From a virus, in IMG/VR virus record IMGVR_UViG_3300001680_000750, positions 1-24,714 of that record: a stretch of DNA of 24,714 nt, one strand, 5' to 3'. A program made the position numbers and the translations under genes. Within the stretch, counting starts at the first letter, position 1, and each line of letters begins with the position of its first letter. Of the stretch, positions 7,412-23,479 are shown in pieces. A model generated the notes under the pieces. That model worked only from the letters and a program-made list of their open reading frames with translations, did no database searches and was not told the origin of the DNA.

Positions 7412-7426
7412 AATAACCTCCCCCTG

Positions 7427-9208
7427 TTATCCGCTACAACTCATACACTCTTCACTATCTACATAGTCCTGAAGAGCAACTCTCTCTACCTTTTGTCCCA
7501 CTTGTTCAGCAGTATGTCCAGTAGAGGTTCTTAAGTAGTACAGCCCCTTAAGCTTACCTTTCCAGGCCTTAAGGTGTACCTTGTTAACTACAGCCTTATC
7601 ACTGCCAGCAGGAAAGAATAAGTTAACACTCTGACCTTGACAGATAAACTCCTGTCTTTGTGACGCATGTTCAACCACCCATTCCTGATCTAACTCAAAG
7701 GCAGTCTTATAAACATCCTTCTCCCAGTCAGTCAAGTACTCCAGTTGCTGTACCGAACCCTCATGGTGGATAATGTTCTTCCACTCCTTAATAAGCCAAT
7801 CTTGGTCCTTACCTAACCTAAGTCTGTGCTCCTCCATCACCACCTCTAAGTGCTTATTCTTAATCAAATGAGCACCTACTCTAGTCCTATGTGTAAATGC
7901 ATTAGACTTGAGTGGCTCTATTGAAGGTGACGTACCTAAGATAATCCCACTGTTGGCATTAGGAGCCACAGCTAGTAAGTGTGAGTTGCGTCTACCTGTT
8001 CCTTCACCGAAGAGGTACTCTCCTCTAGTAGCAGCTAAGGCCTCTGTAGCCATCACAGCCTGCTCCTTAATTGTCTTAAACATACGTCTGTTATGACTTG
8101 TAGCCATACCACTCTCAAAGGGCACATTCTTCGATTGTAGGTACGAATGGAACCCCATTGCACCTAGCCCTAGACTACGTTCAGTAAGTGCCGAATGAAC
8201 GGCCTTCTTGAGCACCTCAGGGGCACTGTCTGTGAATGCAGTCAGTATATTATCTAACATTGTTATTAAGTCACTTACGAGCGATGATGCTTTCCACTCA
8301 TCAAATCTTTCAAGATTGACGGAGGATAAACAACATACTGCCGTGCGATTCTCATCTGTGGGTAGATGGATTTCATTACAGAGATTGCTTCCTTTAATTG
8401 AGAGTCCATGATCCTTTAAAGCTTTCGGAAGATGTCTGTTAGCTTCATCAATGAAGTTAAGATACGGTTCGCCCGTTCTGAAACGTACTTCGATAATACG
8501 CTGCCAAAGATCTCTAGCAGGAACCATATCACGTATAGAGCCATCATTAGGGTCAACGAGATCCCAATCACTACCAGCAACAACGGCATCCATAAAATCA
8601 TCAGTAATATTGATAGCATTGTTAAGATTAAAGCACTTCCTATTAGGATCGCCTCCCGTAGGTACTCTAATGTTGAGGAACTCGATAATATCTGGGTGAC
8701 TGACTGCCATATACGCTGCATAACTTCCCTTCCTTGTTTGACCTTGTTTATAAGCTGTCATTGCTGAATCAGCTACCTTAATGAATGGTATTGGTGATGG
8801 TGCCTTATCACTTACTGCACGTACATCTGACCAATGGCCCCCGACCCCACCGCCTTTAACACTGAGCCAAGCCAACTCTGATTGGTGTTCAATAAGACCA
8901 TCAAGAGTGTCAGGTACGTAAGAGAGAAAACAAGAAATAGGTAATCCTTTAGCTTGCTCTCCTTCAGCAGGAGCGTTACTAAGTACAGGACTACTAAACA
9001 TAAACCAACCATTACTGACAGCATCATATAACCTCTGTGCTAGACTTAAGTCACCATCACAATAGGCCACTGAGGCTCTAGCGTAGGCCTCCTGTGGACT
9101 CTTCTCCTTCCCCCTTAGATAGTATCCCTTAACAAGTTCCCTTGCCTGTTCAGGCATTGTCCTGTCTCTAGTACGATCTATCGTTATCCCTAAGTACTCA
9201 GTCTTCAT
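7427..9208 (-). CDS. nrdA: Class I ribonucleotide reductase, large catalytic subunit, 593 aa
   Basis: Reduces ribonucleotides using the radical supplied by NrdB. Visible catalytic residues: Cys93 (PISCFLS) and Cys292 (AVCCLSS) as the active-site redox pair, and Asn275-Cys277-Glu279 in SNLCNEI as the radical cysteine with its partners. The C-terminal EECMSCSG supplies the Cys pair that re-reduces the active site. At 593 aa it is far shorter than E. coli NrdA (761 aa) because the N-terminal ATP-cone regulatory domain is missing, so overall activity is probably not shut off by dATP. GGGGATTGGG precedes the start, which overlaps the upstream gene by 11 nt. Confidence 0.95.
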   Translation of the reverse strand: MKTEYLGITIDRTRDRTMPEQARELVKGYYLRGKEKSPQEAYARASVAYCDGDLSLAQRLYDAVSNGWFMFSSPVLSNAPAEGEQAKGLPISCFLSYVPDTLDGLIEHQSELAWLSVKGGGVGGHWSDVRAVSDKAPSPIPFIKVADSAMTAYKQGQTRKGSYAAYMAVSHPDIIEFLNIRVPTGGDPNRKCFNLNNAINITDDFMDAVVAGSDWDLVDPNDGSIRDMVPARDLWQRIIEVRFRTGEPYLNFIDEANRHLPKALKDHGLSIKGSNLCNEIHLPTDENRTAVCCLSSVNLERFDEWKASSLVSDLITMLDNILTAFTDSAPEVLKKAVHSALTERSLGLGAMGFHSYLQSKNVPFESGMATSHNRRMFKTIKEQAVMATEALAATRGEYLFGEGTGRRNSHLLAVAPNANSGIILGTSPSIEPLKSNAFTHRTRVGAHLIKNKHLEVVMEEHRLRLGKDQDWLIKEWKNIIHHEGSVQQLEYLTDWEKDVYKTAFELDQEWVVEHASQRQEFICQGQSVNLFFPAGSDKAVVNKVHLKAWKGKLKGLYYLRTSTGHTAEQVGQKVERVALQDYVDSEECMSCSG

Positions 9209-9413
9209 CCCAATCCCCTGGTTGTATCTTTATATCTAACATTTCAAACCCCTCATCGTCATAACTAGATTCATAGGTAAGCCTCCCCTCGTTGTGCATC
9301 TGTACAGCATCAATCAATCCCCTATCATATGATTTACCATTAGACCAATGTGTGTACCATGCACCTAGGGCACATACTGCAAAGAGTATCTCCCACATAA
9401 AAACCTCACTCAT
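9198..9413 (-). CDS. Small membrane protein, 71 aa
   Basis: MSEVF is followed by one hydrophobic helix (MWEILFAVCALGAWYTHW, about residues 6-23), then a soluble, acidic C-terminal part ending QPGDWDED. GGAGGAGATT precedes the ATG at 9413; an internal ATG six residues in is a possible alternative start. It overlaps both neighbours (8 nt and 11 nt) in the tight stretch between the DNA polymerase and nrdA. No family recognised; a membrane-associated role near replication is only a guess. Confidence 0.72.
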   Translation of the reverse strand: MSEVFMWEILFAVCALGAWYTHWSNGKSYDRGLIDAVQMHNEGRLTYESSYDDEGFEMLDIKIQPGDWDED

Positions 9414-9582
9414 AATCTCCTCCCTTATATTTTGATATTCTCTTGAAACCCATCTCTTTTAGAAGTTGTAGTGTGGTCTCCATACTGAGATATAACTCCC
9501 AATCTTCACCCCTCTCACACCTACCCTTCATATCAGACATACGTTCAAGTGCCTCTTCTATACATATAGAATCACTTTCCAT
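9406..9582 (-). CDS. Hypothetical protein, 58 aa
   Basis: The ATG shares a base with the DNA polymerase stop (TAATG), and the end overlaps the next gene by 8 nt. The product begins MESDSICIEEALERM and is mostly helical and charged, ending in a basic segment (KEMGFKRISKYK). No family recognised; the tight overlaps on both sides support it being real. Confidence 0.7.
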   Translation of the reverse strand: MESDSICIEEALERMSDMKGRCERGEDWELYLSMETTLQLLKEMGFKRISKYKGGDYE

Positions 9583-11546
9583 TAGTGTATCTCATACCAA
9601 TTGTTTCCTATTTTAGAACTACCGTCCATTCTGCAGTAGAACCCTAAGTTCTCACCTGCCTCAGTAGCTGTCTCTTCTAGTAGTTTAGCCAACCTACTTG
9701 CATCATCAGGGTGACACTCAAAGTTCTGCTCATCATGCATCACAGCAAGAAGATTACATCTTAATCCTTCCTTCTTAATCCTCTTATCTGACACACACAT
9801 CCATTCTTTAGTAAGTGTAGCTTCGTCCCCTTGCAACCTATAGTTAAGTATCTTATGGTCAGAGTCTACTTGTATCTTCTTACCGTCTTGTAACTTGATA
9901 AACTTCTTACCAGAATCTTTGTACTGTCTCTTAAGTTTGTTAATCAGAGTACTAAGAGCAGGTAGGTTATTCAAGAATCTCTTCTTAAGTTTCCTACCGT
10001 CACCAGAGGTACCGCCAACAATAGTTCCAATCTTGGCATCACCTGATCCGAACAGCATTGCGTATATGAACGTCTTACTGTTAGACCTACCGTTTGACCT
10101 CTCTTGACTATGTAAGTCCCAGGTTGGGTCAATTAGGCCTGCTGAGATACCATTAACAGTGTGAATGTCAGTACCTTCCGACTCTTTACCTGTAAGTACT
10201 GTTTCAGAGTAATCGTCATCTTCCATTGCAGAGGCTAACAACCTCAACTGGGCAGATGCTAAGTCACAACCTACTAAGACATCACCTCTAGGTGCTATGA
10301 ATAGTTCTCTCATTTCCTTACCGAAGACTGACTTAGCCCCTGGTACATTAACAAGTTTCCTATGAGACATACGACCTGTAGCAGTACCTAAAGTAAACGG
10401 TACACACTCAACTCTGGAGTCTTCTCTCATGACACCTAACCACCCCTTCTTATCGTTCTTCATGTTGAGGATAGTGTTTCTTCTGTGTCTATAGATAGCG
10501 TGAAGTGCTAAGTCCTTACCAATGTCACCCTCAATAGACTCAAAGGAATCCTCAGTAAGCTTGGCTGACGTTCTCTCTTTCTCACCATCTTCATTGATCT
10601 TCATATTCCACTGAGTAGGTTGCCACCCTTGAGTAAACAAGAACTTCTTTATCTCAGCAGTCTGAGTCATCTTGACAGGTATAAACTCAACCCTACAGTA
10701 GAACCCACCTATTAGATGTACATCATCAGGTGATATATTAAACCACTTAGCTGTATTGCTATGTACCTTACCTGCCATAGTGAATAGCTTAGTCTTGGGT
10801 TCTCTTAATCGCTTAGAACCCAGACCAGAATCGTAGCTAATACCCTTAGTATCCATGAGTGTATTACACTCTTCGTTGGTTATCCAAGTGTCCTTACATT
10901 TGACTACATTAGGCAACAGTGGCTCCACTAGGTTAGCAATCCTCTCTAATTCCCTATCTAAGAAATTAACATGTCTCTCAGCTAACCTTCTATTAAACAA
11001 CCAACCGTTCTTAACCTGTTGAGCACTAATAGCAGCAACCTCCATCTCTCTTTCCATAGTCCTCTTAGGCACCTTGATGGTCTTCTGTTCCTTAATAAGA
11101 TGCCTATAGACTAGTACGTTAATACGTACGTCCTCTATACACCTATGTAGCATATTAGGTTCCCACTTGGTCCATTGTTCTTGCTTAGGCTTAGGTACGT
11201 CAAAGTACTCACCCCAATTCTTGAGACTGTGCCTACCTTGTGAAAACTTAAGTCTTCTGTTGAAGTCCAACATTTGACTAAGTAGGAAAGTGTCAATAAT
11301 CTTACCTTCTAACTTTATACCGAACAACTTGTCAAGGACAGGTAAGTCATACATTATGATGTTATGGCCTATAAGTGTATCTGCGTCATGTAGTAGCTTA
11401 AGTCCTTCTTTTATACTTTTACAACCTTTGTCGTTATCTGAAAATACATAAGTCTTTTGAGTGTTTAAGTCATAGGCAGCAATACACCACAACCTATCCA
11501 CACTCTCAAGAAACCCATTAGCTTCTAAGTCAAATACTAACCTCAT
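9582..11546 (-). CDS. Family A (T7-like) replicative DNA polymerase with 3'-5' exonuclease, 654 aa
   Basis: Replicates the phage genome. The exonuclease residues are visible: Asp6 and Glu8 (FDLEANG), Asp67 (IGHNIIMYDLP) and Asp139 (CIEDVRINV), so proofreading should be active. Polymerase motif A is GCDLASAQLRLLA with Asp428. The O-helix motif B is RSNSKTFIYAMLFGSG with Arg487, Lys491 and Tyr495, the Tyr matching T7 Tyr526. Motif C is VMHDEQNFEC with Asp605 and Glu606. The length is close to T7 gp5 (704 aa). Whether a thioredoxin-binding insertion is present cannot be told by eye. AGGGGGAATT precedes the start, 8 nt from the helicase gene. Confidence 0.96.
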   Translation of the reverse strand: MRLVFDLEANGFLESVDRLWCIAAYDLNTQKTYVFSDNDKGCKSIKEGLKLLHDADTLIGHNIIMYDLPVLDKLFGIKLEGKIIDTFLLSQMLDFNRRLKFSQGRHSLKNWGEYFDVPKPKQEQWTKWEPNMLHRCIEDVRINVLVYRHLIKEQKTIKVPKRTMEREMEVAAISAQQVKNGWLFNRRLAERHVNFLDRELERIANLVEPLLPNVVKCKDTWITNEECNTLMDTKGISYDSGLGSKRLREPKTKLFTMAGKVHSNTAKWFNISPDDVHLIGGFYCRVEFIPVKMTQTAEIKKFLFTQGWQPTQWNMKINEDGEKERTSAKLTEDSFESIEGDIGKDLALHAIYRHRRNTILNMKNDKKGWLGVMREDSRVECVPFTLGTATGRMSHRKLVNVPGAKSVFGKEMRELFIAPRGDVLVGCDLASAQLRLLASAMEDDDYSETVLTGKESEGTDIHTVNGISAGLIDPTWDLHSQERSNGRSNSKTFIYAMLFGSGDAKIGTIVGGTSGDGRKLKKRFLNNLPALSTLINKLKRQYKDSGKKFIKLQDGKKIQVDSDHKILNYRLQGDEATLTKEWMCVSDKRIKKEGLRCNLLAVMHDEQNFECHPDDASRLAKLLEETATEAGENLGFYCRMDGSSKIGNNWYEIH

Positions 11547-11554
11547 AATTCCCC

Positions 11555-13237
11555 CTAATCAAATTCACTAAGTACTTTGTACAACCTCCCACTTCCACTG
11601 TCATACCTAGCCTTACCTGCTGGCCCGATAGTTCCTGAGAATCTATTCTTAAGTACAGAGATCTTAACTTCCTGTCTCTCATCTTCAGAGTCAGCATGCT
11701 TATTCCTAGAGAAGGCTATAGTCTGCATTGATATCTGCTTAAGTGATCCAGACCCCTTTAAGTCATCCTCAGTGATCTCAGCTCCTGCTTCAAAGGATTT
11801 ACCACCAGAAGGTGCCTTCCTTAAGTGAGAAACCACACCAATCCATACATCATGCTTCTTACATAACTTAAGTAAGTCAGACATAACCTTATCCATAGCT
11901 TGGTTCTGATTACCATCAGTCTCCGATATAGCCATAGTGATGTGGTCTAAGTACAACCACTTACAACCTAAGGCCACCATGTACTCCATCTTGGTCATAA
12001 GTGAATCATCAGATACAGAACCTTGATGGTCTAATAGAGTCAATCTACCTAACCCCATTGTCTCATCCCAAGCCTTCTTACCTTCCTCTCCTTTACGATC
12101 AAACACTGAGTCAGGTAGATAGATAGGGTGGTTGATATGGATGCCTACAATCCTATCCATCGTCTCTCTGACACTCTCTTCTAGTGACACAATACCAACT
12201 TGGTCATTAGTAGTCATAAGTAGGTGATAGATGTCTTCCTTAGAGAAAGTAGACTTACCTGCACCAGTACCTGCTGTGAAGATAGTCAACTCACCTGTAC
12301 GTCTACCGTAGGTCATGTTATTAACATTACCAAAGCACTCTGGGTAAGGTACTGAATCCTCTCTCTTATCCTTTATAAACTCTTCATAAGTTTCTTTAGA
12401 GTTGATAATCCCTGCTGGAGAGTACTGTTTAGCTTCCCAGATAGCAGCAGTCAGTTCCTTTGTCTTACCTTTGACTAAGTAGTCTGAGGCATCCTTACCG
12501 TATGTACCTAACTGTGTTATGTGAGCCTTGCCCGTTCTTATCATCTTGGCACACTCATGTGCTGCCTTCTGTCCTGATTCGTCTTGGTCAAACATTAGGA
12601 CTACTTTATCAAAAGAGTTGATGTACTCTAAGTTGTGGGCGATTTGCTTCCTAGCACCACCTGCTCCATTGATTACACTAACTACAGGAAAGAACCTACC
12701 GTACTTCTTATATATAACCGTCTGATAGGACATTGCATCTAGTACACCCTCAGCGATAACCAGTAAGTTCCTACTAGAGGCTATACCAGTACCTATGAGT
12801 TGTTGTGTGTTAGCTACATTACCAATTCCTATAAACTTCTTGTCTACTACATCTCTTCTTTGATAACCTTCTACTTGGTTGTTCTGGCCGAGGACAGGGT
12901 AGTAGTGGTACTTGATGTTTCTTTTGTTATCGTAACCAACCTTAACACCATAAGCCTCTGATACTGCCTTAGGTATCTTCCTCTCTTCAAAACCTCTTAT
13001 CTCAAAGTCATTCCTAATATCATTTACTGCTTCTACATCTTCAAAGTCTGTTGTCACCTTAGGTGCCTCCCATTTATAACTATCTTTATATTCTTCTATT
13101 CTTGATTGTTCGCATACAAAACAATGGGATGAAATCCTATCCCCATTATCGTAGTATGCCTTCCCATCAGATGAATCGCAGCCGTCAAAGTCACACGGTT
13201 GGTCTGACTTAAGTAGCCTTCCTTTCTCTTCATCCAT
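11555..13237 (-). CDS. T7-like bifunctional primase-helicase, 560 aa
   Basis: Lays RNA primers and unwinds DNA at the fork. Zinc-binding cysteines 15, 20, 39 and 42 sit at the N-terminus. The TOPRIM primase core shows Glu163 (VIAEGVLDAM) and Asp217/Asp219 (LMFDQDESG). The helicase half has Walker A GTGAGKST at 323-330, Walker B KWLYLDH at 426-432, the VVSHLRKAP motif near 468-476 and a likely arginine finger Arg532 (KNRFSGTIG). The C-terminus is acidic (SEFD), as needed in T7 for binding the polymerase. The start lies about 15 nt after a terminator, so expression depends on read-through. Confidence 0.96.
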   Translation of the reverse strand: MDEEKGRLLKSDQPCDFDGCDSSDGKAYYDNGDRISSHCFVCEQSRIEEYKDSYKWEAPKVTTDFEDVEAVNDIRNDFEIRGFEERKIPKAVSEAYGVKVGYDNKRNIKYHYYPVLGQNNQVEGYQRRDVVDKKFIGIGNVANTQQLIGTGIASSRNLLVIAEGVLDAMSYQTVIYKKYGRFFPVVSVINGAGGARKQIAHNLEYINSFDKVVLMFDQDESGQKAAHECAKMIRTGKAHITQLGTYGKDASDYLVKGKTKELTAAIWEAKQYSPAGIINSKETYEEFIKDKREDSVPYPECFGNVNNMTYGRRTGELTIFTAGTGAGKSTFSKEDIYHLLMTTNDQVGIVSLEESVRETMDRIVGIHINHPIYLPDSVFDRKGEEGKKAWDETMGLGRLTLLDHQGSVSDDSLMTKMEYMVALGCKWLYLDHITMAISETDGNQNQAMDKVMSDLLKLCKKHDVWIGVVSHLRKAPSGGKSFEAGAEITEDDLKGSGSLKQISMQTIAFSRNKHADSEDERQEVKISVLKNRFSGTIGPAGKARYDSGSGRLYKVLSEFD

Positions 13238-13252
13238 ATTCCCTCTCAGACA

Positions 13253-13289
13253 TAAAAAAACCCCACACCTTTAAGTAAGATATGGGGTC
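13253..13289 (-). terminator. Rho-independent terminator between SSB and primase-helicase
   Basis: On the - strand a 12-bp stem (ACCCCA then TATCTT, a 5-nt loop, AAGGTG then TGGGGT, with G-U pairs) is followed by seven T's. It lies just after the SSB gene and before the primase-helicase start. It should end most SSB transcripts and let a fraction read through to the replication genes. Confidence 0.9.
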
Positions 13290-13311
13290 TTTATTTATAT
13301 TTTATCTATAC

Positions 13312-13860
13312 TTAGAATACATCCTCTTCAGTTACAGCTTCTTTAATCTCATTATGAGAGAACTCACTACCTGCTTCCTTCTCAAAACCGAACTCGTCTA
13401 CACCGTCCGATCTCACATAAGGAACTAAACTAGTTACTACTACATTTGCAAGACTCATTGACTTACCCTTCTTACCGTTATATTCCCAAGAATATATTGA
13501 ATAAGAAACATGACCCTTAGAACCATTACCAATACCTACGGCACTAGTGTCTAGTGGCTCCATCTTACCTGCTTCATTTAGAATGAATGACCCTGGTGGA
13601 ATCAACTCTTTACCGTCTCTAGATACTGCTAACTTATTGATATTAATCTTATACATACCAGTTTCATCACCATTCTCATCTTCAACTTCTTTCAAGTTAC
13701 GGATAAGTTTGTCCTTCTTCAAGGCCTTTGCTGTATCTTTATCTACATGTGCAGTCACAGTCCAAACCAGTTTCTCAAATGATTCAGTTGGGCTGGCAGG
13801 ATCTACCGAACACCAATGTAACTCTACGTCTCTTAGTACTTTCTTTTCTTGCTGTGCCAT
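13312..13860 (-). CDS. Single-stranded DNA-binding protein, T7 gp2.5-like, 182 aa
   Basis: Coats single-stranded DNA and coordinates replication proteins. The body is a beta-rich domain of the size of an OB fold (VELHWCSVDPASPTESFEKL onward), and the C-terminus is acidic and ends in Phe (EAVTEEDVF). An acidic tail with a final aromatic residue is the hallmark of T7 gp2.5, where it contacts polymerase and helicase. Position between the exonuclease and primase-helicase agrees. Sequence similarity is otherwise too weak to see by eye. GAGGAAATAAG precedes the ATG. The gene has its own upstream promoter and its own downstream terminator. Confidence 0.82.
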   Translation of the reverse strand: MAQQEKKVLRDVELHWCSVDPASPTESFEKLVWTVTAHVDKDTAKALKKDKLIRNLKEVEDENGDETGMYKININKLAVSRDGKELIPPGSFILNEAGKMEPLDTSAVGIGNGSKGHVSYSIYSWEYNGKKGKSMSLANVVVTSLVPYVRSDGVDEFGFEKEAGSEFSHNEIKEAVTEEDVF

Positions 13861-13925
13861 CTTATTTCCTCACGATTATTATATTATTTTAAATGCAGTA
13901 ACAAACTAAAGATGTTCACTTACTC

Positions 13926-13956
13926 CGTTTATTATCTGCAAAGGTGAGCCAACCCT
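13926..13956 (-). promoter_or_regulatory. Phage promoter-like element upstream of SSB (TTGCAGA subtype)
   Basis: On the - strand AGGGTTGGCTCACC is followed by TTTGCAGATAATAAACG. Thirty of 31 bases match the element upstream of the exonuclease gene, and the first part (TTGGCTCACC) is shared with the + strand T7-like promoters. It starts right after the exonuclease stop, about 65 nt before the SSB start. Function as a promoter is inferred. Confidence 0.75.
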
Positions 13957-13957
13957 G

Positions 13958-14788
13958 CTAACCCCTACTGTAGCAAGCTTCAGGAATTTCCCACATTTCA
14001 TCTTTCTTCTGTCTTATGTACAGAAGTCTTCCTACCTCAAGCAGCGATCCCTCCCAATCTTTGCCATATTGATTTCTATATTGGTCGGCTATGTCAGCCC
14101 ACCTATTAGTAGAGGGTTCAAGTAACTTCTTGGTCTTGACCTTCCCTAATCCATTAATCCCTGGTATGTTATCAACAGTGTCACCTAATATGAATTGGTA
14201 CTGTAGGTGGTACTCTGCTTCCTTCTCATTGACCCAATCTAAAGAGTCAACCCTAAAGTCATAATGCCAACCAGGTACCGTCCAGAGATCTTTATCGATA
14301 GTACATATACATGTATCCTCTGTCTGGTCAATACCTAATAAGTCATCGGCCTCTTCGTTATCACTTACTACGGCCTCATGCTTAGTCTTTAGATACTCTC
14401 TAATCTCCTCATATTGGAGAGGTTTCTCACCAGACCTAGTACCCTTATAGGGTTTGATAGTTGCTACCTCAGTTCGGAAGTTTGTGGAGCCTGAGATATA
14501 CATCTGAGAGAGAGAACACTTGGCTCTCTTAACAATCCAAGCAATCTTCTTATCTAATGCCTCCAATGTTTCCTCTAATGGGTTACACCATTCCTTCTTT
14601 AGTTCAACATGGAACCCATCGGTAGACATAGTGAACTGTGACATCTCTTTAATAAAACTATTACAAGCTGTCTTAGTGGCTTCAGTTGTTAATATATCTC
14701 CCTTATCATTCTTAACTTCCCATTCTTTATTGTGGGCGGCCCAACCTAGTTGATACACCAACACATCTCCGTCTATTAATGCCTTCAT
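13958..14788 (-). CDS. T7 gp6-like 5'-3' exonuclease (FEN/PIN family), 276 aa
   Basis: Removes RNA primers and digests DNA from 5' ends to feed the nucleotide pool. Metal-binding acids are visible in order: Asp6 and Asp8 (ALIDGDVLVY), Glu146, Asp148 and Asp149 (EEADDLLG), Asp165 and Asp167 (TIDKDLWTV), and Asp203/Asp206 (LGDTVDNIPGI). The last is followed by the helix-hairpin-helix GINGLGKVKTKKLL (about 210-223) that holds the DNA backbone. The length is close to T7 gp6 (300 aa). GAGGAAG precedes the ATG. It is the first gene of the leftward replication arm, just behind its own promoter-like element. Confidence 0.93.
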   Translation of the reverse strand: MKALIDGDVLVYQLGWAAHNKEWEVKNDKGDILTTEATKTACNSFIKEMSQFTMSTDGFHVELKKEWCNPLEETLEALDKKIAWIVKRAKCSLSQMYISGSTNFRTEVATIKPYKGTRSGEKPLQYEEIREYLKTKHEAVVSDNEEADDLLGIDQTEDTCICTIDKDLWTVPGWHYDFRVDSLDWVNEKEAEYHLQYQFILGDTVDNIPGINGLGKVKTKKLLEPSTNRWADIADQYRNQYGKDWEGSLLEVGRLLYIRQKKDEMWEIPEACYSRG

Positions 14789-14804
14789 AAAACTTCCTCA
14801 ATTA

Positions 14805-14835
14805 CGTTTATTATCTGCAATGGTGAGCCAACCCT
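14805..14835 (-). promoter_or_regulatory. Phage promoter-like element upstream of exonuclease (TTGCAGA subtype)
   Basis: On the - strand AGGGTTGGCTCACC is followed by ATTGCAGATAATAAACG, the near-identical twin of the element before SSB (one mismatch in 31). It ends 17 nt before the exonuclease start. The shared TTGGCTCACC core with + strand promoters suggests recognition by the phage polymerase. Confidence 0.78.
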
Positions 14836-14845
14836 AAAATAAAGG

Positions 14846-14873
14846 TTGACATATTAGAAAAGGGTGATATAAT
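14846..14873 (+). promoter_or_regulatory. Host sigma-70-type promoter, + strand
   Basis: TTGACA (14846-14851) and TATAAT (14868-14873), both perfect consensus, are separated by 16 nt. Transcription would start near 14880. It faces away from the replication genes, toward the structured non-coding stretch and the exported-protein gene. It is 10 nt beyond the - strand exonuclease promoter element, so the two are back to back. Confidence 0.88.
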
Positions 14874-14879
14874 TCGCTA

Positions 14880-15090
14880 CACCTAATACATTGTTTCCTT
14901 AATATAACTGGGATTTATTAAACACAACAATGGATTGATTTGTTACCAGTAGAAAGGTGACAAGAGATACAGATAGTAGTTATACCTAGAAGAGGCCTAC
15001 CCTGAGGAACCACTTACCAACAACTCTCTGTTCTCATTCCTTCACACTCCCCTTTGACTGTCATTACCTCCTAGAGGGGGAGTGTCCTTT
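14880..15090 (+). ncRNA. Candidate structured non-coding RNA or long structured leader
   Basis: This is the gene-free part of the gap downstream of the sigma-70 promoter. Hand folding finds CACCT (14880-14884) pairing with AGGTG (14955-14959), enclosing ACTGG (14907-14911) with CCAGT (14946-14950). Next, GAGA-ACAGA-AGTT pieces at 14964-14981 pair with AACT-TCTGT-TCTC at 15022-15035, 13 pairs with two bulges. Last, ACACTCCCC (15044-15052) pairs with GGGGAGTGT (15077-15085). The first stem begins at the expected transcript start. No ORF of useful length lies here. It may be an independent RNA of about 200 nt or the leader of the gene at 15164; I do not recognise a known RNA family. Confidence 0.5.
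15043..15090 (+). terminator. Hairpin, possible weak terminator
   Basis: A 9-bp GC-rich stem (ACACTCCCC with GGGGAGTGT) has a loop of about 24 nt that contains ACCTCCT, able to pair with a Shine-Dalgarno sequence. It is followed by CCTTTCATCT, which is pyrimidine-rich but not a strong T-run. It may end the sigma-70 transcript, be a processing site, or act as an attenuator. Confidence 0.4.
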
Positions 15091-15110
15091 CATCTATATT
15101 AGCACTATCT

Positions 15111-15136
15111 TATATAGTTGGCTCACCTATAGAAGG
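15111..15136 (+). promoter_or_regulatory. Phage RNA polymerase promoter, T7/SP6-like
   Basis: TATATAGTT followed by GGCTCACCTATAGAAGG. Compare T7 (CTCACTATAGGG) and SP6 (CACTATAGAAG). The same core occurs at 17753 and 17860. The likely start is the G of TATAG near 15132, about 30 nt before the start codon of the exported-protein gene. Confidence 0.85.
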
Positions 15137-15163
15137 AAACACTTTTAACTATAGGAAATTACA

Positions 15164-15418
15164 ATGAAAAAGACTATTACTGGCTTAGTACTACTAACTA
15201 GCTTATACACAACTGCATATGCAGGATTCTTCGATAACTTCGGCAGCAACGAATATAAAGACAATGGATTCTTCGGATACAACCACTATGAAATGTGGGA
15301 ACCTAGATGGTATGTGAAAGAGGCTGACAACTTCTTAAATGAATTTGACGATAAAAAAGGGAACAAGCATAACCACTCATTCCCCGTAACAGATCAATAC
15401 AGACCCGATTGTGACTAG
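15164..15418 (+). CDS. Small secreted protein, + strand orphan, 84 aa
   Basis: MKKTITGLVLLTSLYTTAYA is a clear Sec signal peptide, with cleavage expected after AYA. The mature part of about 64 residues is rich in aromatic, Asn, Gly and acidic residues (GFFDNFGSNEYKDNGFFGYN, then EMWEPRWYVKEADNFLNEF) and ends with a single Cys (RPDCD). AGGAAATTACA precedes the ATG. It is the only + strand gene between 3166 and the right edge, has a phage promoter and a host promoter upstream, and ends 6 nt from the RNA polymerase stop with no terminator between. The aromatic Gly/Asn-rich style faintly recalls exported proteins of sulfur-oxidising bacteria; that resemblance is from memory and weak. It may be a host-derived accessory gene. 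Confidence 0.82.
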   Translation: MKKTITGLVLLTSLYTTAYAGFFDNFGSNEYKDNGFFGYNHYEMWEPRWYVKEADNFLNEFDDKKGNKHNHSFPVTDQYRPDCD

Positions 15419-15424
15419 ATAAGA

Positions 15425-17716
15425 CTAACTGATGATGTAGTTTGAATGTAAGACTTCATCATCTGTTACGTCTCCATAGACTATTTCAGAGTCTGAGGCT
15501 CCCAAATCCTCCAGTATAGAGGATAAAGTGTCTGACCCTATAGTATCTATGAATACCATCTTAAACTCATCAAATAGGACATCTACTTGGCTCGCAGGTA
15601 CAGAGAACTGGTCATGAATCATCATAAAGTCAGTAACCCCAATGCGGCCCAACTTAGATAGCACCATAGTCATTAGAGAGGCATCAAGCGAATGAACAAT
15701 ATTAGCTGATATGCCTGTCTTATGTCTCTTCTTCAAGATACCCTTAAAGCCGAAGGCTACTGTTATCATTATCCTCTTCTCACCAAACCTAACTCTTAAC
15801 CTCTCGGTATGTATTTGACCGTACCCTTGGAAGGCTGTGAAGTTAGTAGGAGTCTTCCAAGACAAGTACACATCAGTGGCATTCTTAACCGCAGCACACG
15901 CTGTCTTTTGGAATACCTTAAGTGTATTTGCCTGTGGTGGGTAGGCTCCGTCCTTACCGTCAAGTGCTTTGAAGATACATCTAGACAAAGGCTTAGTGTC
16001 TCTAAACTTCATCTTCGTGAAGGCATCAGAGCCGAACGTAGCCCTATCATTGTACAACTGGTATCTGATACAATCTTCACCTGCTGAATAATAGTAGGAC
16101 ATACAAGGTCTTTTGGTGACCTTTCTGGAGCCATACTGTATGTAGTCATTGAATTGGAAGGAAGTAATTAGGTTTTTATCCATCTCCTTCTCATTTTCCT
16201 CTTCATCAAACTTATCCATCATCTTATACATATTGTTAACGGCAACATTCCACACTTCATCATAGGCATCACCAATCTCTCTGATAGGGTGTTGTATAAC
16301 ATTAGTATCTTGACAGCCCTTCCTATCCCTAGTTAAGAATGATAGGATTTGTAGGCCAGAGTTAGTAGCATCTAAACCAACAGGTATTCTGCACTGCCAA
16401 CCCTCACTACCATTCTCTTTCAAGTCTACAAAGGACATGGCACCTGCTAGGAATTGCCACTTGGTCTTCTTCTCACCCTGTAGTTTAAACAGTAGGGCGG
16501 AGTTAAGTGGATCTTCAACAGCATGTTTAATGGCCTCATAGTTATCATAAACCCAATTAACCCTATCCTGCTTAGATAGCTTATCCATACCTGCACAGTT
16601 GGCTATATGGTAGGCTAAGTGAGCCTCTACATTCTCTGACCATTCTTGAGTATTAAAGAATTGTAATAGAGACTTGGCCAGATCACTACCTGTAGGTTCT
16701 AACCACTGTTGCATAGGATAGAATCTACCCCTACTATCTAATTGGAAGTCAAAGAAGAAGGGTGCATCCTCTAGAGACAGAGACCCCTTACTTCTGTCAT
16801 TAATAACAGTAGCCTTCTTAATAACCATATCAAACTCTCTTCTCTTAGAGTGTGCAGCAACCACCTTAATGAGAGGGTCGGCCTTCTCTGTATACCAATC
16901 CTTAGCCATCTGTTTAGACATCTTATCTAAGTACCTACTGTTGATACCTTGAGACATAGCCCACTGAGACTTCTTATCCCTAACAAAGTCTTCTTTATTC
17001 TTAACCTTCATAAGGTCACATAGAGCCTCAGTAACTGTAGCCTGTGGTATCACCTCAGGTATCCAACAGTACCCTGCATCCTCCATAAGTTGAGCAACCT
17101 TAAGTATCCCATCATTAATCACAAAGGGTGTAGAACCATAGTTATTCAGAGCCTCATAGACATGTGGTATCTCTTCTTTAGAATACTTCTCATCCCAACC
17201 TACAGGCATTCTCTTAACAATAGAGTTAACACCCTTCCAAGGAGAAACCCAAGGGACATACTCATTAGTAGGAAAATTACCTAAGGATTCATCAGAAGTA
17301 AGTATAAGCTTAAGAAACTCATCACAGGCAGGTTCAACAGTATACATTTCATTCTTACCACCCACCTTAATAGGTTTAGCTAATCTAATACAACCCGATA
17401 AGGCTAATAGACCAACAGCCTCTATTCCAATCTTTACTAACTCTCTCTTCTTCTTATAGTTACCACCAAAGGTAAGATCAGTCATCTTCTCACCCTCTAA
17501 GTGCAATAACCTAGTACCTACAGCCTCACCTATACTAACTAATTGCTCTCTATTTGATACCCCTTTAATAACAGCCTCTAATATGATATTAGATAACTCT
17601 TCCCTATCCCCTTCATACCTTCTTAAGTACCTACATAAAGGTGAAGGATTATTATTCTTCTTTTGTATAAAATTTAACTTACTTACTAACTTGACAATAA
17701 ACTTCCTATCAATCAT
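15425..17716 (-). CDS. T7-like single-subunit RNA polymerase, 763 aa
   Basis: Transcribes middle and late phage genes from phage promoters. Landmarks of the family are all visible: DSRGRFYP (327-334), motif A VGLDATNSGLQ with Asp449, motif B TKRPCMSYYYSAG with Lys535 and Tyr543 (T7 Lys631 and Tyr639), the ANIVHSLDAS segment (671-680) and motif C MMIHDQFSVPA with Asp702 (T7 Asp812). The residue after the motif B Tyr is Ser, where T7 has Gly640. It is shorter than T7 RNAP (883 aa), mainly in the N-terminal part, so it is a divergent member. GAGGGGAAATCAAGTA precedes the ATG. It is the last gene of the early leftward unit. Confidence 0.96.
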   Translation of the reverse strand: MIDRKFIVKLVSKLNFIQKKNNNPSPLCRYLRRYEGDREELSNIILEAVIKGVSNREQLVSIGEAVGTRLLHLEGEKMTDLTFGGNYKKKRELVKIGIEAVGLLALSGCIRLAKPIKVGGKNEMYTVEPACDEFLKLILTSDESLGNFPTNEYVPWVSPWKGVNSIVKRMPVGWDEKYSKEEIPHVYEALNNYGSTPFVINDGILKVAQLMEDAGYCWIPEVIPQATVTEALCDLMKVKNKEDFVRDKKSQWAMSQGINSRYLDKMSKQMAKDWYTEKADPLIKVVAAHSKRREFDMVIKKATVINDRSKGSLSLEDAPFFFDFQLDSRGRFYPMQQWLEPTGSDLAKSLLQFFNTQEWSENVEAHLAYHIANCAGMDKLSKQDRVNWVYDNYEAIKHAVEDPLNSALLFKLQGEKKTKWQFLAGAMSFVDLKENGSEGWQCRIPVGLDATNSGLQILSFLTRDRKGCQDTNVIQHPIREIGDAYDEVWNVAVNNMYKMMDKFDEEENEKEMDKNLITSFQFNDYIQYGSRKVTKRPCMSYYYSAGEDCIRYQLYNDRATFGSDAFTKMKFRDTKPLSRCIFKALDGKDGAYPPQANTLKVFQKTACAAVKNATDVYLSWKTPTNFTAFQGYGQIHTERLRVRFGEKRIMITVAFGFKGILKKRHKTGISANIVHSLDASLMTMVLSKLGRIGVTDFMMIHDQFSVPASQVDVLFDEFKMVFIDTIGSDTLSSILEDLGASDSEIVYGDVTDDEVLHSNYIIS

Positions 17717-17752
17717 TACTTGATTTCCCCTCTTATTTAATTATATTTATAT

Positions 17753-17776
17753 GTATAGTTGGCTCACCTATAGAAG
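17753..17776 (+). promoter_or_regulatory. Phage RNA polymerase promoter, T7/SP6-like
   Basis: GTATAGTT then GGCTCACCTATAGAAG, matching the promoter at 15111 over 16 bases from GG to AAG. It lies just beyond an AT-rich block and points away from the polymerase gene, into DNA whose genes are all on the other strand. Confidence 0.85.
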
Positions 17777-17859
17777 TAACGACTAGACAGTCATCATAGT
17801 TGCATATCACTACCCCCTATTATGTGTGTTGCATAACAGAGTGTTACTTCTACTACTTA

Positions 17860-17884
17860 CTCAAGGTTGGCTCACCTATAGAGG
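17860..17884 (+). promoter_or_regulatory. Phage RNA polymerase promoter, T7/SP6-like
   Basis: CTCAAGGTT then GGCTCACCTATAGAGG, in the same direction as and 108 nt downstream of the copy at 17753. Tandem spacing of this kind is seen at the T7 primary origin. Confidence 0.83.
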
Positions 17885-17950
17885 ACAATCGAAAGACCCC
17901 CTATATTAGACTATACTAGCTCATTTGTTATCATATTTGGACGGTACTAC

Positions 17951-17975
17951 TTGGCTCACAAACCCACCCCCTAAG
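17951..17975 (+). promoter_or_regulatory. Decayed promoter copy
   Basis: TTGGCTCAC is kept, but the CTATAG start part is replaced by AAACCCACCCCC. It is third in the tandem series, 84 nt after the second. It is probably a non-functional remnant or a binding-only site. Confidence 0.4.
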
Positions 17976-17996
17976 AATACCACTTAAGAGGATACT

Positions 17997-18033
17997 ACTA
18001 TAGACCCACTATAGACTACTAGGGGGGTCTATC
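17997..18033. repeat. Operator-like repeats: ACTATAGAC twice and an inverted copy
   Basis: ACTATAGAC occurs at 17997 and 18008, 11 bp apart (one helical turn), and GGGTCTAT at 18026-18033 is an inverted match to ATAGACCC. Such spacing suits a ribbon-helix-helix repressor, and a gene for one overlaps this spot. It could also form an RNA hairpin. Confidence 0.35.
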
Positions 18034-18200
18034 GCTCCTGAGGTACTACTAGGAGTACTTACTAATTGAAACTCAACGTCCATCATAGCGATCAGCTTTA
18101 TGTAAGAAGTCCTATTGAGTCCCATTTTAGATGCTTTAATATCTAATTGTTCTAATGTCTTTTCTGGTAATTTTAAGTTAATCTGTTTAATTCGTTCCAT
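18009..18200 (-). CDS. Ribbon-helix-helix (CopG/Arc-type) DNA-binding protein, 63 aa
   Basis: Residues about 4-38 fit the fold: a beta strand KQINLKLPE, helix KTLEQLDIKASKMG and helix NRTSYIKLIAMM. The C-terminal tail is Ser/Thr/Pro-rich (STPSSTSGAIDPPSSL) and probably disordered. These proteins bind DNA as dimers and usually repress. It is the last small gene before the polymerase and sits beside tandem phage promoters and spaced repeats, so it is a good candidate for controlling the polymerase gene or those promoters. GGAG lies about 10 nt upstream of the ATG, inside the preceding gene's end. Confidence 0.85.
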   Translation of the reverse strand: MERIKQINLKLPEKTLEQLDIKASKMGLNRTSYIKLIAMMDVEFQLVSTPSSTSGAIDPPSSL

Positions 18201-18203
18201 TTA

Positions 18204-18599
18204 CTATTTACTCCATTTGTTAAGTTTAAAGGTATCTTTATTATACCGTAATTGTAGTCCATTAGAGGTTATATAAGTAAACCATTCATGATACTTTAAC
18301 ATATTACAAGCACTATCCCTAATACATTTCTGGTAGTGTCCGTTCTGTTTAGCCATCAGTGTTCCTAATACCCTCATAGGTGTCCAAATAGACCTCTCAG
18401 TGTAGTCAAACACTGGGTAGTTAAAGAAATAACTATCTTCAACAGGGAATTGAAAGTTATCATCTACTGCTGCCACACTAGAATGCATAGATATTAGGCA
18501 TACTAAGGCTAGGGTAGGGTATCGAAGTCTCTTATATATTTGAAGAGTCTTCTTCGAATTCTCTGGGCTAATTTGGAGTTCTCTTTTAGTAGTATTCAT
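18204..18599 (-). CDS. Putative exported early protein, 131 aa
   Basis: The start is put at ATG 18599 (AGGTG 7 nt upstream; TAATG overlap with the previous stop) rather than at the GTG nine bases earlier. A long basic N-region (MNTTKRELQISPENSKKTLQ) leads to a hydrophobic core YPTLALVCLISM and a likely signal cleavage near VAA, with mature protein from VDDNFQF. The mature part has aromatic residues and a cysteine pair (KCIRDSACNM). An early protein sent to the periplasm could block superinfection or modify the envelope. No family recognised. Confidence 0.72.
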   Translation of the reverse strand: MNTTKRELQISPENSKKTLQIYKRLRYPTLALVCLISMHSSVAAVDDNFQFPVEDSYFFNYPVFDYTERSIWTPMRVLGTLMAKQNGHYQKCIRDSACNMLKYHEWFTYITSNGLQLRYNKDTFKLNKWSK

Positions 18600-19027
18600 T
18601 ATATGCACCTATTGATTAAAGCCCAATGACCATGAATATCATAGTACATCCTGTCAGTGTGCCTAGTACTTACTTCTTTACTTACCTTAACCTTATCAGA
18701 GATAGGCTTTAGTACTCTCTCACTAATGCCATCCATGCAGGACAATCTAGTCCCTGCTGTAGACACCTTACACCCTAAGTGTTCTGCTAAAGTTGCACTA
18801 GTCCATTCTGACCCATCGTCTAACGTATAGGTATACCTACCGTCATTACCTTTAGACCCATGTGCACACCTTGTAGGGCTTACGGACTTGTAGACCCTAC
18901 TTGGATCAGTGAATTTAATAAGTCTTGAGTAGCAGGTACTACGAGGGTATCCTGTCTCAGCTACCATTTCATCCACGGTTGTAATAGTACCGTCATCTAA
19001 TTTATAAGTTCTAGTTGATTTGTTCAT
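18599..19027 (-). CDS. Protein with duplicated DNA-binding-like unit, 142 aa
   Basis: Two similar blocks are visible: residues 8-47 (YKLDDGTITTVDEMVAETGY onward to RVYK) and 67-107 (YTLDDGSEWTSATLAEHLGC onward to RVLK). Each reads as a short beta hairpin followed by helices with a Thr/Ser...RL pattern, resembling helix-turn-helix units attached to phage homing enzymes, but no nuclease is present. It may bind DNA as a monomer through both units. The C-terminus is short and basic. It overlaps the upstream gene by 17 nt and the downstream gene by one base. Confidence 0.72.
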   Translation of the reverse strand: MNKSTRTYKLDDGTITTVDEMVAETGYPRSTCYSRLIKFTDPSRVYKSVSPTRCAHGSKGNDGRYTYTLDDGSEWTSATLAEHLGCKVSTAGTRLSCMDGISERVLKPISDKVKVSKEVSTRHTDRMYYDIHGHWALINRCI

Positions 19028-19214
19028 CCTCTTTTTTCCCCAAGTTATTATTATATGTCTGTTGTACTTCCTCTAAGATATCTTCAAGTAACTCTGTATC
19101 CTTCTCTGAAAGGTAATTGCACATCTTCATGTAGTATGAATGCATCAGTATATCCATATCCACATTCATTGTCATCAAACCTGCTGTCTTGTCTATCATC
19201 TCTTCTCTAGTCAT
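19011..19214 (-). CDS. Hypothetical helical protein, 67 aa
   Basis: The start is set at ATG 19214 because GGAG lies 8 nt upstream and ATGA overlaps the preceding stop; a GTG nine bases earlier has no room for a ribosome site. It is methionine-rich (GLMTMNVDMDILMHSYYMKM) and then acidic helical. No family recognised. Confidence 0.7.
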   Translation of the reverse strand: MTREEMIDKTAGLMTMNVDMDILMHSYYMKMCNYLSEKDTELLEDILEEVQQTYNNNLGKKEDEQIN

Positions 19215-19414
19215 TCCATCCACTCCTTTATATTCTCTATTACTTCAATAGCCTTATTTAATTCATATACTAATTGTTTAGCTTGTTTATAATCTTCTTC
19301 GGCTTCGTAGCTAGTAGTATCTATTAACTCTATTACTTCTCTTATGCTATCTAATACCCCATCTTTAGTTGGGCAACAGATACACTTACTACTTCCCATC
19401 GGTAGTGGTCTCAT
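19211..19414 (-). CDS. Hypothetical helical protein with CxCC motif, 67 aa
   Basis: Begins MRPLPMGSSKCICCPTKDG and continues as helices. AGGAGAAGGT precedes the ATG, and both ends overlap neighbours by ATGA. From residue 19 on it resembles the next upstream gene product (D..LDSI..VIELIDT and a matching LV.EL..AI..IE), so the pair looks like a tandem duplication. The N-terminal cysteines, which may bind metal, are unique to this copy. Confidence 0.72.
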   Translation of the reverse strand: MRPLPMGSSKCICCPTKDGVLDSIREVIELIDTTSYEAEEDYKQAKQLVYELNKAIEVIENIKEWME

Positions 19415-19611
19415 ACCTTCTCCTTAGTGTTTTCGTCAGTATCTTCCCAATCACCATCAACTTGTAATTCAACCCACTTGATAGTTTCCTGCAACCTTGA
19501 CACTAGGTCTTCAGCTTCTTTAATATCGTAAGGTAAGACTGTGTTTATGTATTCCATAGCATCACAGATACTATCCATTGCTTCATCATTTGTTATTCTT
19601 ACGTAACTCAT
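19411..19611 (-). CDS. Hypothetical helical protein, paralogue of its neighbour, 66 aa
   Basis: MSYVRITNDEAMDSICDAME is followed by NTVLPYDIKEAEDLVSRLQE and an acidic tail. The DSI..A.E.I.T...EA..LV..L...I pattern is shared with the gene just downstream. The start overlaps the upstream stop by ATGA. No known family. Confidence 0.72.
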   Translation of the reverse strand: MSYVRITNDEAMDSICDAMEYINTVLPYDIKEAEDLVSRLQETIKWVELQVDGDWEDTDENTKEKV

Positions 19612-19781
19612 ACTGAATACCTTCCCATTAGTTTTCTATAATCTTCTAGTCTAGTTTCCTTAAGTAACATTACATACTTATATAGGTAGTAGTCTGATGC
19701 ATCTGGATCTCTAGCTATGGCAGCAATCCACTTCTCTTGGATCTTGCACTCTTCTATGTTTACTTTGTCTATGATAGTCAT
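19608..19781 (-). CDS. Hypothetical helical protein, 57 aa
   Basis: Begins MTIIDKVNIEECKIQEKW and ends KLMGRYSV, almost entirely helical with a DPDASDYYLYKYV middle. AAAGGAGACCCAAGC precedes the ATG, and both ends overlap neighbours by ATGA. No family recognised. Confidence 0.7.
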   Translation of the reverse strand: MTIIDKVNIEECKIQEKWIAAIARDPDASDYYLYKYVMLLKETRLEDYRKLMGRYSV

Positions 19782-20017
19782 GCTTGGGTCTCCTTTAGGC
19801 TAACTTGGATTATTAAACTCTTTAGTATCAAGTATTCATTAGCTACCTTAAGAGGTGACTTACCACCTCTAATCTTAAGTAGTGTCTTTTCTCTAATGTT
19901 AACACCGTGAATCTTACTACCTACTGCCATCGTTCCAAATGAACTATCTACAACGCCCGAAGATTTAAAAGTATCTCGTGCCCCTTGTCCTGCTCTCTTT
20001 CTAATATCTATATTCAT
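19778..20017 (-). CDS. Hypothetical basic protein, 79 aa
   Basis: MNIDIRKRAGQGARDTFKSS starts a basic, glycine-containing N-terminal part, followed by a more hydrophobic helical end (VANEYLILKSLIIQVSL). GGAG lies about 8 nt before the ATG, and the start overlaps the upstream stop (ATGA). The basic character would allow nucleic acid binding, but no motif proves it. Confidence 0.7.
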   Translation of the reverse strand: MNIDIRKRAGQGARDTFKSSGVVDSSFGTMAVGSKIHGVNIREKTLLKIRGGKSPLKVANEYLILKSLIIQVSLKETQA

Positions 20018-20199
20018 TCCATATCTCCATCTGCTAATTGTACTGTCTCTCTGATTTCACCATTCATGATATCAATCCAAGACTCCTTGTTAATTACTGC
20101 TACTAGGTGTAGCCATCTCTTTCTACTGAAGTCCGTATTAAGCCTATCTGTTGCCTCTAGGTAGTCCCAATAGTCAAACTCTATATTAATCTTTCTCAT
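20014..20199 (-). CDS. Hypothetical protein, 61 aa
   Basis: Begins MRKINIEFDYWDYLEATDRL; aromatic-rich, mixed alpha/beta character, ending in an acidic ADGDME. The start lies inside the 3' end of the upstream gene, and the stop overlaps the next start by ATGA. No family recognised. Confidence 0.68.
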   Translation of the reverse strand: MRKINIEFDYWDYLEATDRLNTDFSRKRWLHLVAVINKESWIDIMNGEIRETVQLADGDME

Positions 20200-20362
20200 C
20201 TTCTAACCTCTCTATGGTTTCATCGAATTCAATCAACATATGTCCACACCATTCACCAAAGTTATCACGATTAACTTTCAAATCTTCTAATAACTCTTCT
20301 TTTGTCTTCTTACCTTTCGTTCTAAAGTTTCCTTGATATTCTATCTCGTATATTTCTTTCAT
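20186..20362 (-). CDS. Hypothetical charged protein, 58 aa
   Basis: Begins MKEIYEIEYQGNFRTKGKKT and ends in an acidic helix (FDETIERLEDEKD). GGAGGGTTTATC precedes the ATG. A strand-turn-helix pattern with the sequence KTKEELLEDLKV is visible. Its 5' end overlaps a tiny membrane-protein gene by 41 nt. No family recognised. Confidence 0.68.
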   Translation of the reverse strand: MKEIYEIEYQGNFRTKGKKTKEELLEDLKVNRDNFGEWCGHMLIEFDETIERLEDEKD

Positions 20363-20435
20363 GATAAACCCTCCATGTTTTATAAATTAAAGCTATCCAT
20401 AGGATTATTGATATTGTTAGTAAAAACTCAAACAT
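20322..20435 (-). CDS. Tiny single-helix membrane protein, 37 aa
   Basis: MFEFLLTISIILWIALIY is a transmembrane helix, followed by a very basic tail (KTWRVYHERNIRDRISRKL). GAGGGATT precedes the ATG, which overlaps the end of the methyltransferase gene by 8 nt. Most of the basic tail is encoded within the overlap with the next gene. The arrangement is compact but plausible; translation is not proven. Confidence 0.55.
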   Translation of the reverse strand: MFEFLLTISIILWIALIYKTWRVYHERNIRDRISRKL

Positions 20436-21510
20436 AATCCCTCTCTTCGATGTTCATACCTTGTAGTATGTGTTCTATGACAGAAACCGACCATCCATTG
20501 CCTAACATTTTGTACCTCTGTGTGTTTGACACACCTTCAGTGTAGTTATCTGGTACTGTTTGTAAGCGTTCACATTCTAGTGGTGTTAGCTTACGGTAAG
20601 TAGGGTGCTCATACCTCATGTACTCATAGTTGGCAGCGGTTAAGCAGTTACTCTTATCCTTCATGTTTCTACCACGCCTAGTCTTACTCTTAGGGAAGGT
20701 CAAGTCAAAGCAGTCACCATCTTCTATCTCTGTATACCCCTTCTTAGTGGCTTCCTTCACTACCAATACCTTAGGCTCTCTATGTCCACCACCCATTGTA
20801 GTGAGTGTTGGTGCTTTGCCGTCTTGATGGTAGACTCTCTTAATTGAATCATTACCCTTCAAATCAGCATCACCAACATGACACAATCCATCTTTAGAGA
20901 ATACCAATTGTCTTCGGTGTTTCTCAAAATAGGACTTTAGGTTACCTCCTTTAAAGTAGTTAGCATCTAAGCAGTGTGACTTATCTCTATCGACAAATCC
21001 ATCCTCTAAGATATCTTTCAATACAATACCTTTGTCTTCGGGTTGCTCTACGGGTAAGTTAGTCCAATACAATCTGTTACGGTTTTGGGCTGTTAATAAA
21101 GAACTATTAATCAAAATAGGCTCTACCCCTAATTGCTCACTAATTACCGCTTGATATTCCTTCTTCATTCGTACGTTTTCCATTAAGAAGTACTTAGGCT
21201 TCAATTCCTTAAGAAGTCTCACGTATTCAAAGAATAGGGCTGATCTTGGGTCATCAAAGTTAAGTTGCTTACCTGCAAAACTAAATCCTTGACAAGGTGA
21301 ACCACCTAATAACAAATCAATCTTAGGTAAGTCATCTGCCACCACCTTAGTTACGTCTCCAATATGGATGGTGTTCGGGTAGTTTTTCTTAGTGATTTGA
21401 ATAGCCCACTTATCAATCTCTGATGCATAGTAGTTATCAACCTTAACACCTAAGTTATCAAGTGCTATTTGGCCACATGACATGCCGTCAAATAAACTTA
21501 ATACGTTCAT
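20428..21510 (-). CDS. Cytosine-C5 DNA methyltransferase, 360 aa
   Basis: Adds a methyl group to carbon 5 of cytosine in a specific DNA sequence. The ordered motifs are present: SAM-binding FDGMSCGQIAL (7-17), catalytic GGSPCQGFSFAG with Cys74, ENV at 111-113, QNRNRLYW (motif VIII) and the C-terminal RYKMLGNGWSVSVIEHIL (motifs IX-X). The target recognition region lies between VIII and IX, about 160-300. No restriction enzyme is encoded nearby, so it is an orphan enzyme, most likely protecting phage DNA from host restriction. AGGACAAGAC precedes the ATG. Confidence 0.95.
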   Translation of the reverse strand: MNVLSLFDGMSCGQIALDNLGVKVDNYYASEIDKWAIQITKKNYPNTIHIGDVTKVVADDLPKIDLLLGGSPCQGFSFAGKQLNFDDPRSALFFEYVRLLKELKPKYFLMENVRMKKEYQAVISEQLGVEPILINSSLLTAQNRNRLYWTNLPVEQPEDKGIVLKDILEDGFVDRDKSHCLDANYFKGGNLKSYFEKHRRQLVFSKDGLCHVGDADLKGNDSIKRVYHQDGKAPTLTTMGGGHREPKVLVVKEATKKGYTEIEDGDCFDLTFPKSKTRRGRNMKDKSNCLTAANYEYMRYEHPTYRKLTPLECERLQTVPDNYTEGVSNTQRYKMLGNGWSVSVIEHILQGMNIEERDYV

Positions 21511-21683
21511 GTCTTGTCCTCTTTTATTTCAGTTACTTCATCTGTTTCCCATCCGTTGTGAATGATTTTGTACTCGGCAATGTCTTTATTGTGCCAATTA
21601 GCACAAGCATCATCAAAGTCTTCAGCTTCTACCACTACCTTGTATGTAATGATTTCTCTTGTGATTATCTTAAATGTTTTCAT
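21507..21683 (-). CDS. DpnD/PcfM-like small protein, 58 aa
   Basis: The start is set at ATG 21683; the longer frame to 21722 would lie inside the upstream gene. MKTFKIITREIITYKVVVEA then EDFDDACANW gives two beta strands followed by an alpha helix, the plan of the small DpnD/PcfM-like family. The same plan recurs in the next two upstream genes and in the 55-aa gene at 23961. The stop overlaps the methyltransferase start by ATGA. The function is unknown. Confidence 0.65.
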   Translation of the reverse strand: MKTFKIITREIITYKVVVEAEDFDDACANWHNKDIAEYKIIHNGWETDEVTEIKEDKT

Positions 21684-22247: not shown

Positions 22248-22249
22248 GA

Positions 22250-22531: not shown

Positions 22532-22568
22532 TATTTATCCTCATGTTTATGTTTATATGTTGCTTTGT
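22525..22568. repeat. 44-nt direct repeat, copy 1
   Basis: Matches 22830-22873 with a single A/G difference. It covers the shared C-terminal codons (KATYKHKHEDK), the stop, the ribosome site GAGGATAAATA and the first codons (ATGATTG) of the next gene. Confidence 0.92.
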
Positions 22569-23418: not shown

Positions 23419-23479
23419 TGTATAGCCCCTATATAAGCTTGATAAAATCTGTCATCATCAGTATTAAGGTGATTAATCC

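Follow-up and report, generated by a model that had tools for sequence, protein, structure and literature searches.

Structured RNAs of bacteriophages have been described in several forms. GOLLD and ROOL, structured RNAs that phages encode, have no known function (PMC12286853). Regulatory small RNAs such as PreS, VpdS, c4, OOP and others come mostly from temperate phages and are of the antisense type (Table 1 in PMC12197685), and in marine phages the manA and wcaG motifs are presumed to regulate metabolic genes from the 5' UTR (PMC2864571). We analyzed a 24.7-kb fragment of an uncultivated tailed phage (IMG/VR record IMGVR_UViG_3300001680_000750; 24,714 nucleotides, hereafter the window), for which a structured non-coding RNA behind a host-type promoter had been predicted. 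Both promoter and fold are kept wherever the locus occurs among relatives. We call the RNA RNA1; most likely, as judged from the sequences, it represents a new family confined to one lineage, a structured RNA that the host transcribes early and that acts in trans.

The − strand of the window carries replication genes, i.e., those for a methyltransferase, a single-subunit RNA polymerase, a 5'-3' exonuclease, a Gp2.5-like SSB, a primase-helicase, a DNA polymerase and a ribonucleotide reductase. The RNA polymerase is only about 24–26% identical to polymerases of sequenced phages, the lineage of the window is therefore far from known genera. Relatives of the polymerase were absent from 84,980 prokaryote genomes, hence these gave no hint to the host. 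Between the exonuclease (end 14788) and the polymerase (start 15425) lies a + strand block in which a sigma70 promoter is followed by a gene-free stretch and then by an 84-aa open reading frame (ORF) (Table 1). The absence of genes from this stretch had been predicted and was borne out: between 14788 and the ORF start at 15164 no ORF is common to the relatives, and none on the + strand is shared by the five alignment rows. On the − strand, a short frame covers the RNA1 core; its third codon positions are kept, and beyond the core it is not shared. The RNA1 region is without a conserved reading frame.

Table 1. Features of the RNA1 locus (window coordinates).
Feature	Position	Strand	Remarks
Phage-polymerase-type promoter core GTTGGCTCACC	14822..14832	−	Reads toward exonuclease; kept in five relatives
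Host sigma70 promoter, extended −10, TTGACATATTAG-nnnnnnn-TGATATAAT	14846..14873	+	No change of −35, −10 or TG in any relative
RNA1, conserved structured non-coding RNA, about 155 nt	14880..15035	+	Predicted start about 7 nt after −10
P1	14889..14932	+	Changes on both sides in 10/13 pairs across relatives
P1 lower stem CAUUGUU/AACAAUG	14889–14895 with 14926–14932	+	
P1 upper stem UUAAUA/UAUUAA	14899–14904 with 14916–14921	+	
P1 loop, 11 nt, UAACUGGGAUU	14905–14915	+	
P2 hairpin UUGUUACC/GGUGACAA	14940..14963	+	39/40 cells paired, double changes in 2 pairs
P3, long closing stem GAGA-ACAGA/UCUGU-UCUC around core hairpin	14964..15035	+	
Core AGAGGCCUACCnnGAGGAACC, 21 nt, hairpin GGCCU-ACCnnG-AGG-AA-CC	14991..15011	+	Invariant except two positions
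Imperfect inverted repeat CTATATTAG...CTTATATAG	15094..15117	+	Conserved, just upstream of phage promoter
Phage-polymerase-type promoter GTTGGCTCACCTATAGAAGGA	15117..15137	+	Reads toward exported ORF
84-aa ORF with apparent signal peptide (MKKTITGLVLLTSLYTTAYA-G)	15164..15418	+	Relatives at same place

The host promoter has the perfect TTGACA (14846–14851) and TATAAT (14868–14873) hexamers that the original prediction named, with a 16-bp spacer and, in addition, TG at 14865–14866, i.e., an extended −10 element (TGn). No other such promoter had been noticed in the window; scanning positions 6000–24714 and then the whole window indeed returned it as the sole 12/12 sigma70 site, at 0.055 sites expected by chance (200 dinucleotide-Markov sequences). 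Five IMG/VR relatives have the locus (L004, L005, L006, L007 and L008, the last nearly identical to the window), and TTGACATATTAG-n7-TGATATAAT is unchanged in all of them. The 49.8-kb contig behind L007 contains exactly two 12/12 sites, with 0.1 expected by chance. One, at 29270 (+), is the RNA1 promoter; the other, at 38066 (−), stands ahead of the early − strand genes as an early-operon promoter. As these are the only two, host polymerase would use both when infection begins, which lends indirect support to the suggested early expression. With the promoter pattern alone, one extra viral contig was retrieved and rejected (L043, an unrelated phage where the pattern drives an ordinary ORF).

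Folded alone, the window sequence was unremarkable (z −1.3 and −1.2), the case for the RNA1 fold hence rests on comparison. The minimum-energy fold of each relative on its own gave a hairpin, a second hairpin and a long closing stem. We aligned five distinct sequences from three lineages. In a structural alignment, which was adjusted by hand to the structure and gave the best pair counts, 144 of 146 cells were paired and 16 of 30 pairs had changed on both sides. Permuting the 3' strands (120 permutations) lowered the median to 118 paired cells compared with the observed 144; only the observed order and one exchange within the L005/L006 lineage reached 144, and swaps between lineages destroyed pairing. 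With two sequence-only MAFFT alignments, 95.4–95.6% of the named-helix cells were paired and seven pairs had changed on both sides. No shuffle out of 500 was as highly paired, and sliding the strands left 44–54% paired for one base and 34–54% for one to three bases. RNAalifold z-scores against column shuffles were −3.8 and −3.3 for the two sequence-only alignments, on which the program also predicted P2. In the middle segment of P3, 25/25 cells were paired, with four double changes. P1 was almost fully rewritten between lineages, with the pattern U[AU]ACnnGGnUU of its 11-nt loop kept. Among the non-coding segments, RNA1 has diverged furthest (57–91% identity) with its core invariant, compared with 82–96% for the flanking exonuclease and polymerase genes. 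Compensatory changes in the stems, proposed earlier as a check, are thus found in the relatives; matched-pair changes keep the fold and show that selection acts on the shape of the RNA itself.

Not every detail of the predicted structure held. At least three helices had been claimed, and P1, P2 and P3 exist, however not exactly as the single-sequence fold draws them. Moreover, the first helix does not start at the transcript 5' end as assumed, since the expected start site lies about 9 nt upstream of P1. A GC-rich hairpin at 15044–15086 occurs only in the window and its near-twin L008, lacks a good U-tract and falls outside the conserved RNA1. No clear rho-independent terminator follows P3 in most relatives and none is consistently placed between RNA1 and the ORF. 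RNA1 therefore has no defined 3' end, and transcription may continue into the ORF.

Within the core, CCnnG (15000–15004) is complementary to CnnGG of loop 1 (14908–14912). This loop-loop pairing is present in 24/25 cells with one double change, and it ranks directly behind P2 among 5665 window pairs. Of the two variable core positions, one changes from G-C to A-U in step with loop 1. The other forms G-C or G-U, and U-U in the window, where the docking contact thus carries one mismatch. On alignment A3, RNAalifold favors a long-range helix built from these same loop-loop bases. Because shuffles match the pairing in 2–6% of cases, we regard a contact of the P1 loop with the P3 core loop as tentative.

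Searches of the whole window against Rfam 15 at the gathering threshold gave no match; for the gap alone, three weak matches were reported up to E 10, 28–136 bits under the cut-off, and for L005 nothing came near the cut-off within the RNA. The suggestion that RNA1 might be a decoy for host machinery found no support here, as neither 6S nor any other Rfam family matched. Comparing the gap by BLAST with 50,697 phage records returned nothing convincing, and the core pattern was absent from the 84,980 prokaryote genomes. A covariance model built in this work matches RNA1 in this clade only, and among 28 more distant exonuclease loci and the polymerase relatives at 58% and 37% identity no convincing match was found (best E 0.033, L024). 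Six extra contigs retrieved with a shorter core pattern were discarded, the covariance model being weak there and confined to the pattern itself. As judged by these searches, RNA1 is a new, lineage-restricted RNA family outside every Rfam family.

RNA1 is absent from polymerase relatives at 58% identity or below. In L014 (58%), polymerase and exonuclease are nearly adjacent with only a promoter-like TTCTCACCTATAGTAAGGA between them, and other more distant relatives have a small ORF at this place. From these differing junctions, the RNA1 block looks like a clade-specific insertion. It is an extra unit with its own promoter that is absent at the same junction in relatives, as morons are; it lies between two phage-polymerase promoters and has the look of a moron-style insertion.

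Near the polymerase, exact copies of the phage promoter core GTTGGCTCACC occur at 13943 (−), 14822 (−), 15117 (+), 17758 (+) and 17866 (+). We take this core to resemble the T7-type promoter CTCACTATAG, and the + strand copies continue with TATAGA(A)G, as T7-type promoters do. Related sites stand ahead of late genes in the 49.8-kb relative. From sequence and position we infer that the GTTGGCTCACC sites are phage-polymerase promoters. The upstream edge of the site at 14822..14832 abuts the UP region of the host promoter. The − strand sites at 13943 and 14822 share the initiation region GGCTCACC-ATTGCAGATAATAAACG and the + strand ones have GGCTCACCTATAGAAGG, which suggests two promoter classes.

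Further candidates were observed nearby. Directly 3' of the promoter at 17758 lies a second candidate RNA (17771–17852, +; 83–92 nt), pointing away from the polymerase gene and against − strand genes. Its closing stem GAAGUAAC/GUUACUUC is almost invariant in G001, G002 and L004, and the window shows matched 3-nt deletions on both stem sides. At 17866–17925 (+), a phage-type promoter stands ahead of the motif CTATATTAGACTATACTAG, which G001 and G002 conserve; the promoter at 15117 is also preceded by CTATATTAG. In L053, positions 18050–18600 (G001:38050–38600) form a gap between a divergent early sigma70 promoter and a late phage promoter. It contains a + strand terminator-like hairpin and AGGGGCCTACCTTGG, sharing GGCCTACCTTG with the RNA1 core, and coincides with the GC-skew minimum.

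The original prediction also considered a structured leader of the exported-protein gene. In such a case, one early host-polymerase mRNA would start with RNA1 and run into the ORF, with the RNA1 fold controlling its translation or lifetime. RNA1 indeed lies on the strand of the ORF about 130 nt upstream of its start codon with no consistent terminator in between, and the two co-occur in all relatives and are both absent from L014. However, a conserved phage-type promoter 3' of RNA1 would give the ORF its own transcript. Moreover, L004 is a mosaic: its RNA1 is 87% identical to that of L007 and 61% to that of the window, whereas its ORF is 93% identical to that of the window and 56% to that of L007. 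An L007-type RNA1 thus stands next to a window-type ORF, which places a recombination point between them; RNA1 and ORF types reassort, and a gene-specific leader is therefore disfavored. The core is also invariant beside quite different ORFs (84 and 100 aa), and no riboswitch or leader family matched. The leader claim is hence weakened, and we regard it as unlikely, if still a serious alternative. The ORF itself had no match in PHROG or Pfam. Its family varies at the N- and C-termini and conserves (E/N)PRWY(V/I)KEA(D/N)N; L038 had been taken for a relative of the exported protein and was rejected, as it has no matching locus.

Between its divergent phage promoters, the gap might instead act as DNA that happens to be palindromic, either as an origin of replication or as a regulatory site. 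In T7, phage-polymerase promoters serve as origins, and two divergent phage-type promoters flank the gene-free gap here. Against this, neither turning point of the cumulative GC-skew in the 49.8-kb relative (38260 and 17932) coincides with 29270, RNA1 and the sigma70 promoter are conserved together, and the wholesale compensatory replacement of stems, with the core kept, speaks for a transcript that folds. We consider a DNA element very improbable.

Oligomerization through complementary loops, as in the phi29 packaging RNA or the GOLLD/ROOL cages, for packaging or compartment formation, has a slim chance at best. Loops CnnGG and CCnnG are complementary with one covarying position, and the phi29 packaging RNA has an early promoter, as RNA1 would have. 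The same complement could however equally well form within one molecule and is only modestly significant, no Rfam family including the packaging RNA model matched, and terminase and portal belong to general tailed-phage families. That a good promoter meets incidental hairpins by chance is hardly credible; the window fold alone is not exceptional (z −1.2 to −1.3), but promoter invariance and compensatory change in the relatives contradict it.

We therefore return to RNA1 as a discrete structured non-coding RNA gene that is transcribed early by the host, acts in trans and entered in a moron-like manner, which we consider probable. On phage entry, host RNA polymerase with sigma70 would transcribe RNA1 from the consensus extended −10 promoter, together with the early operon and before the phage polymerase is made. 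The transcript is predicted to fold into three consecutive helices, of which the P1 apical loop and the P3 core hairpin may dock and present the invariant AGAGGCCUACCnnGAGGAACC element. The folded RNA could then act in trans early in infection as a protein- or RNA-binding element, and its unit would have entered the lineage between the polymerase and exonuclease genes. Possible, if on the unlikely side, is a new class of compact docked phage RNA, host-made at infection onset, that redirects a bound host factor (polymerase, ribosome, nuclease or defense protein) before any phage protein is present. In phages with single-subunit RNA polymerases, host takeover is attributed mainly to early proteins. 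A structured RNA produced by host polymerase alongside the early operon would, if true, give such a phage an early function based on RNA. With its core sequence, a covariation model and a clear lineage boundary, RNA1 is directly testable.

Described phage RNAs (PMC12197685, PMC12286853, PMC2864571, PMC11476376) are analogues of RNA1 in kind only. With GOLLD and ROOL (PMC12286853) it shares being a structured, non-coding phage RNA defined by covariation with loop-loop contacts, tentative for RNA1; in contrast to these RNAs of several hundred nucleotides, it has about 155 nt, no Rfam match and no neighboring tRNA genes (none were found). The phi29 packaging RNA (174/120 nt; PMC11476376) is likewise non-coding, of similar size and has complementary loops, whereas RNA1 comes from another kind of phage with its own RNA polymerase and lies beside replication genes. 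Like the small RNAs that regulate phage or host genes (PMC12197685), RNA1 is a small phage RNA, but it has a covarying three-helix fold and an invariant core, and the GC hairpin with U-tract of an intrinsic terminator was not found. Like manA and wcaG (PMC2864571), it is a structured phage RNA found through comparative genomics; it matches neither. Tailed-phage morons resemble the RNA1 unit in their own sigma70 promoter, their place between phage genes on the opposite strand and their absence in relatives; unlike them, the RNA1 unit holds a structured RNA besides its ORF, and this ORF has a phage-type promoter of its own.
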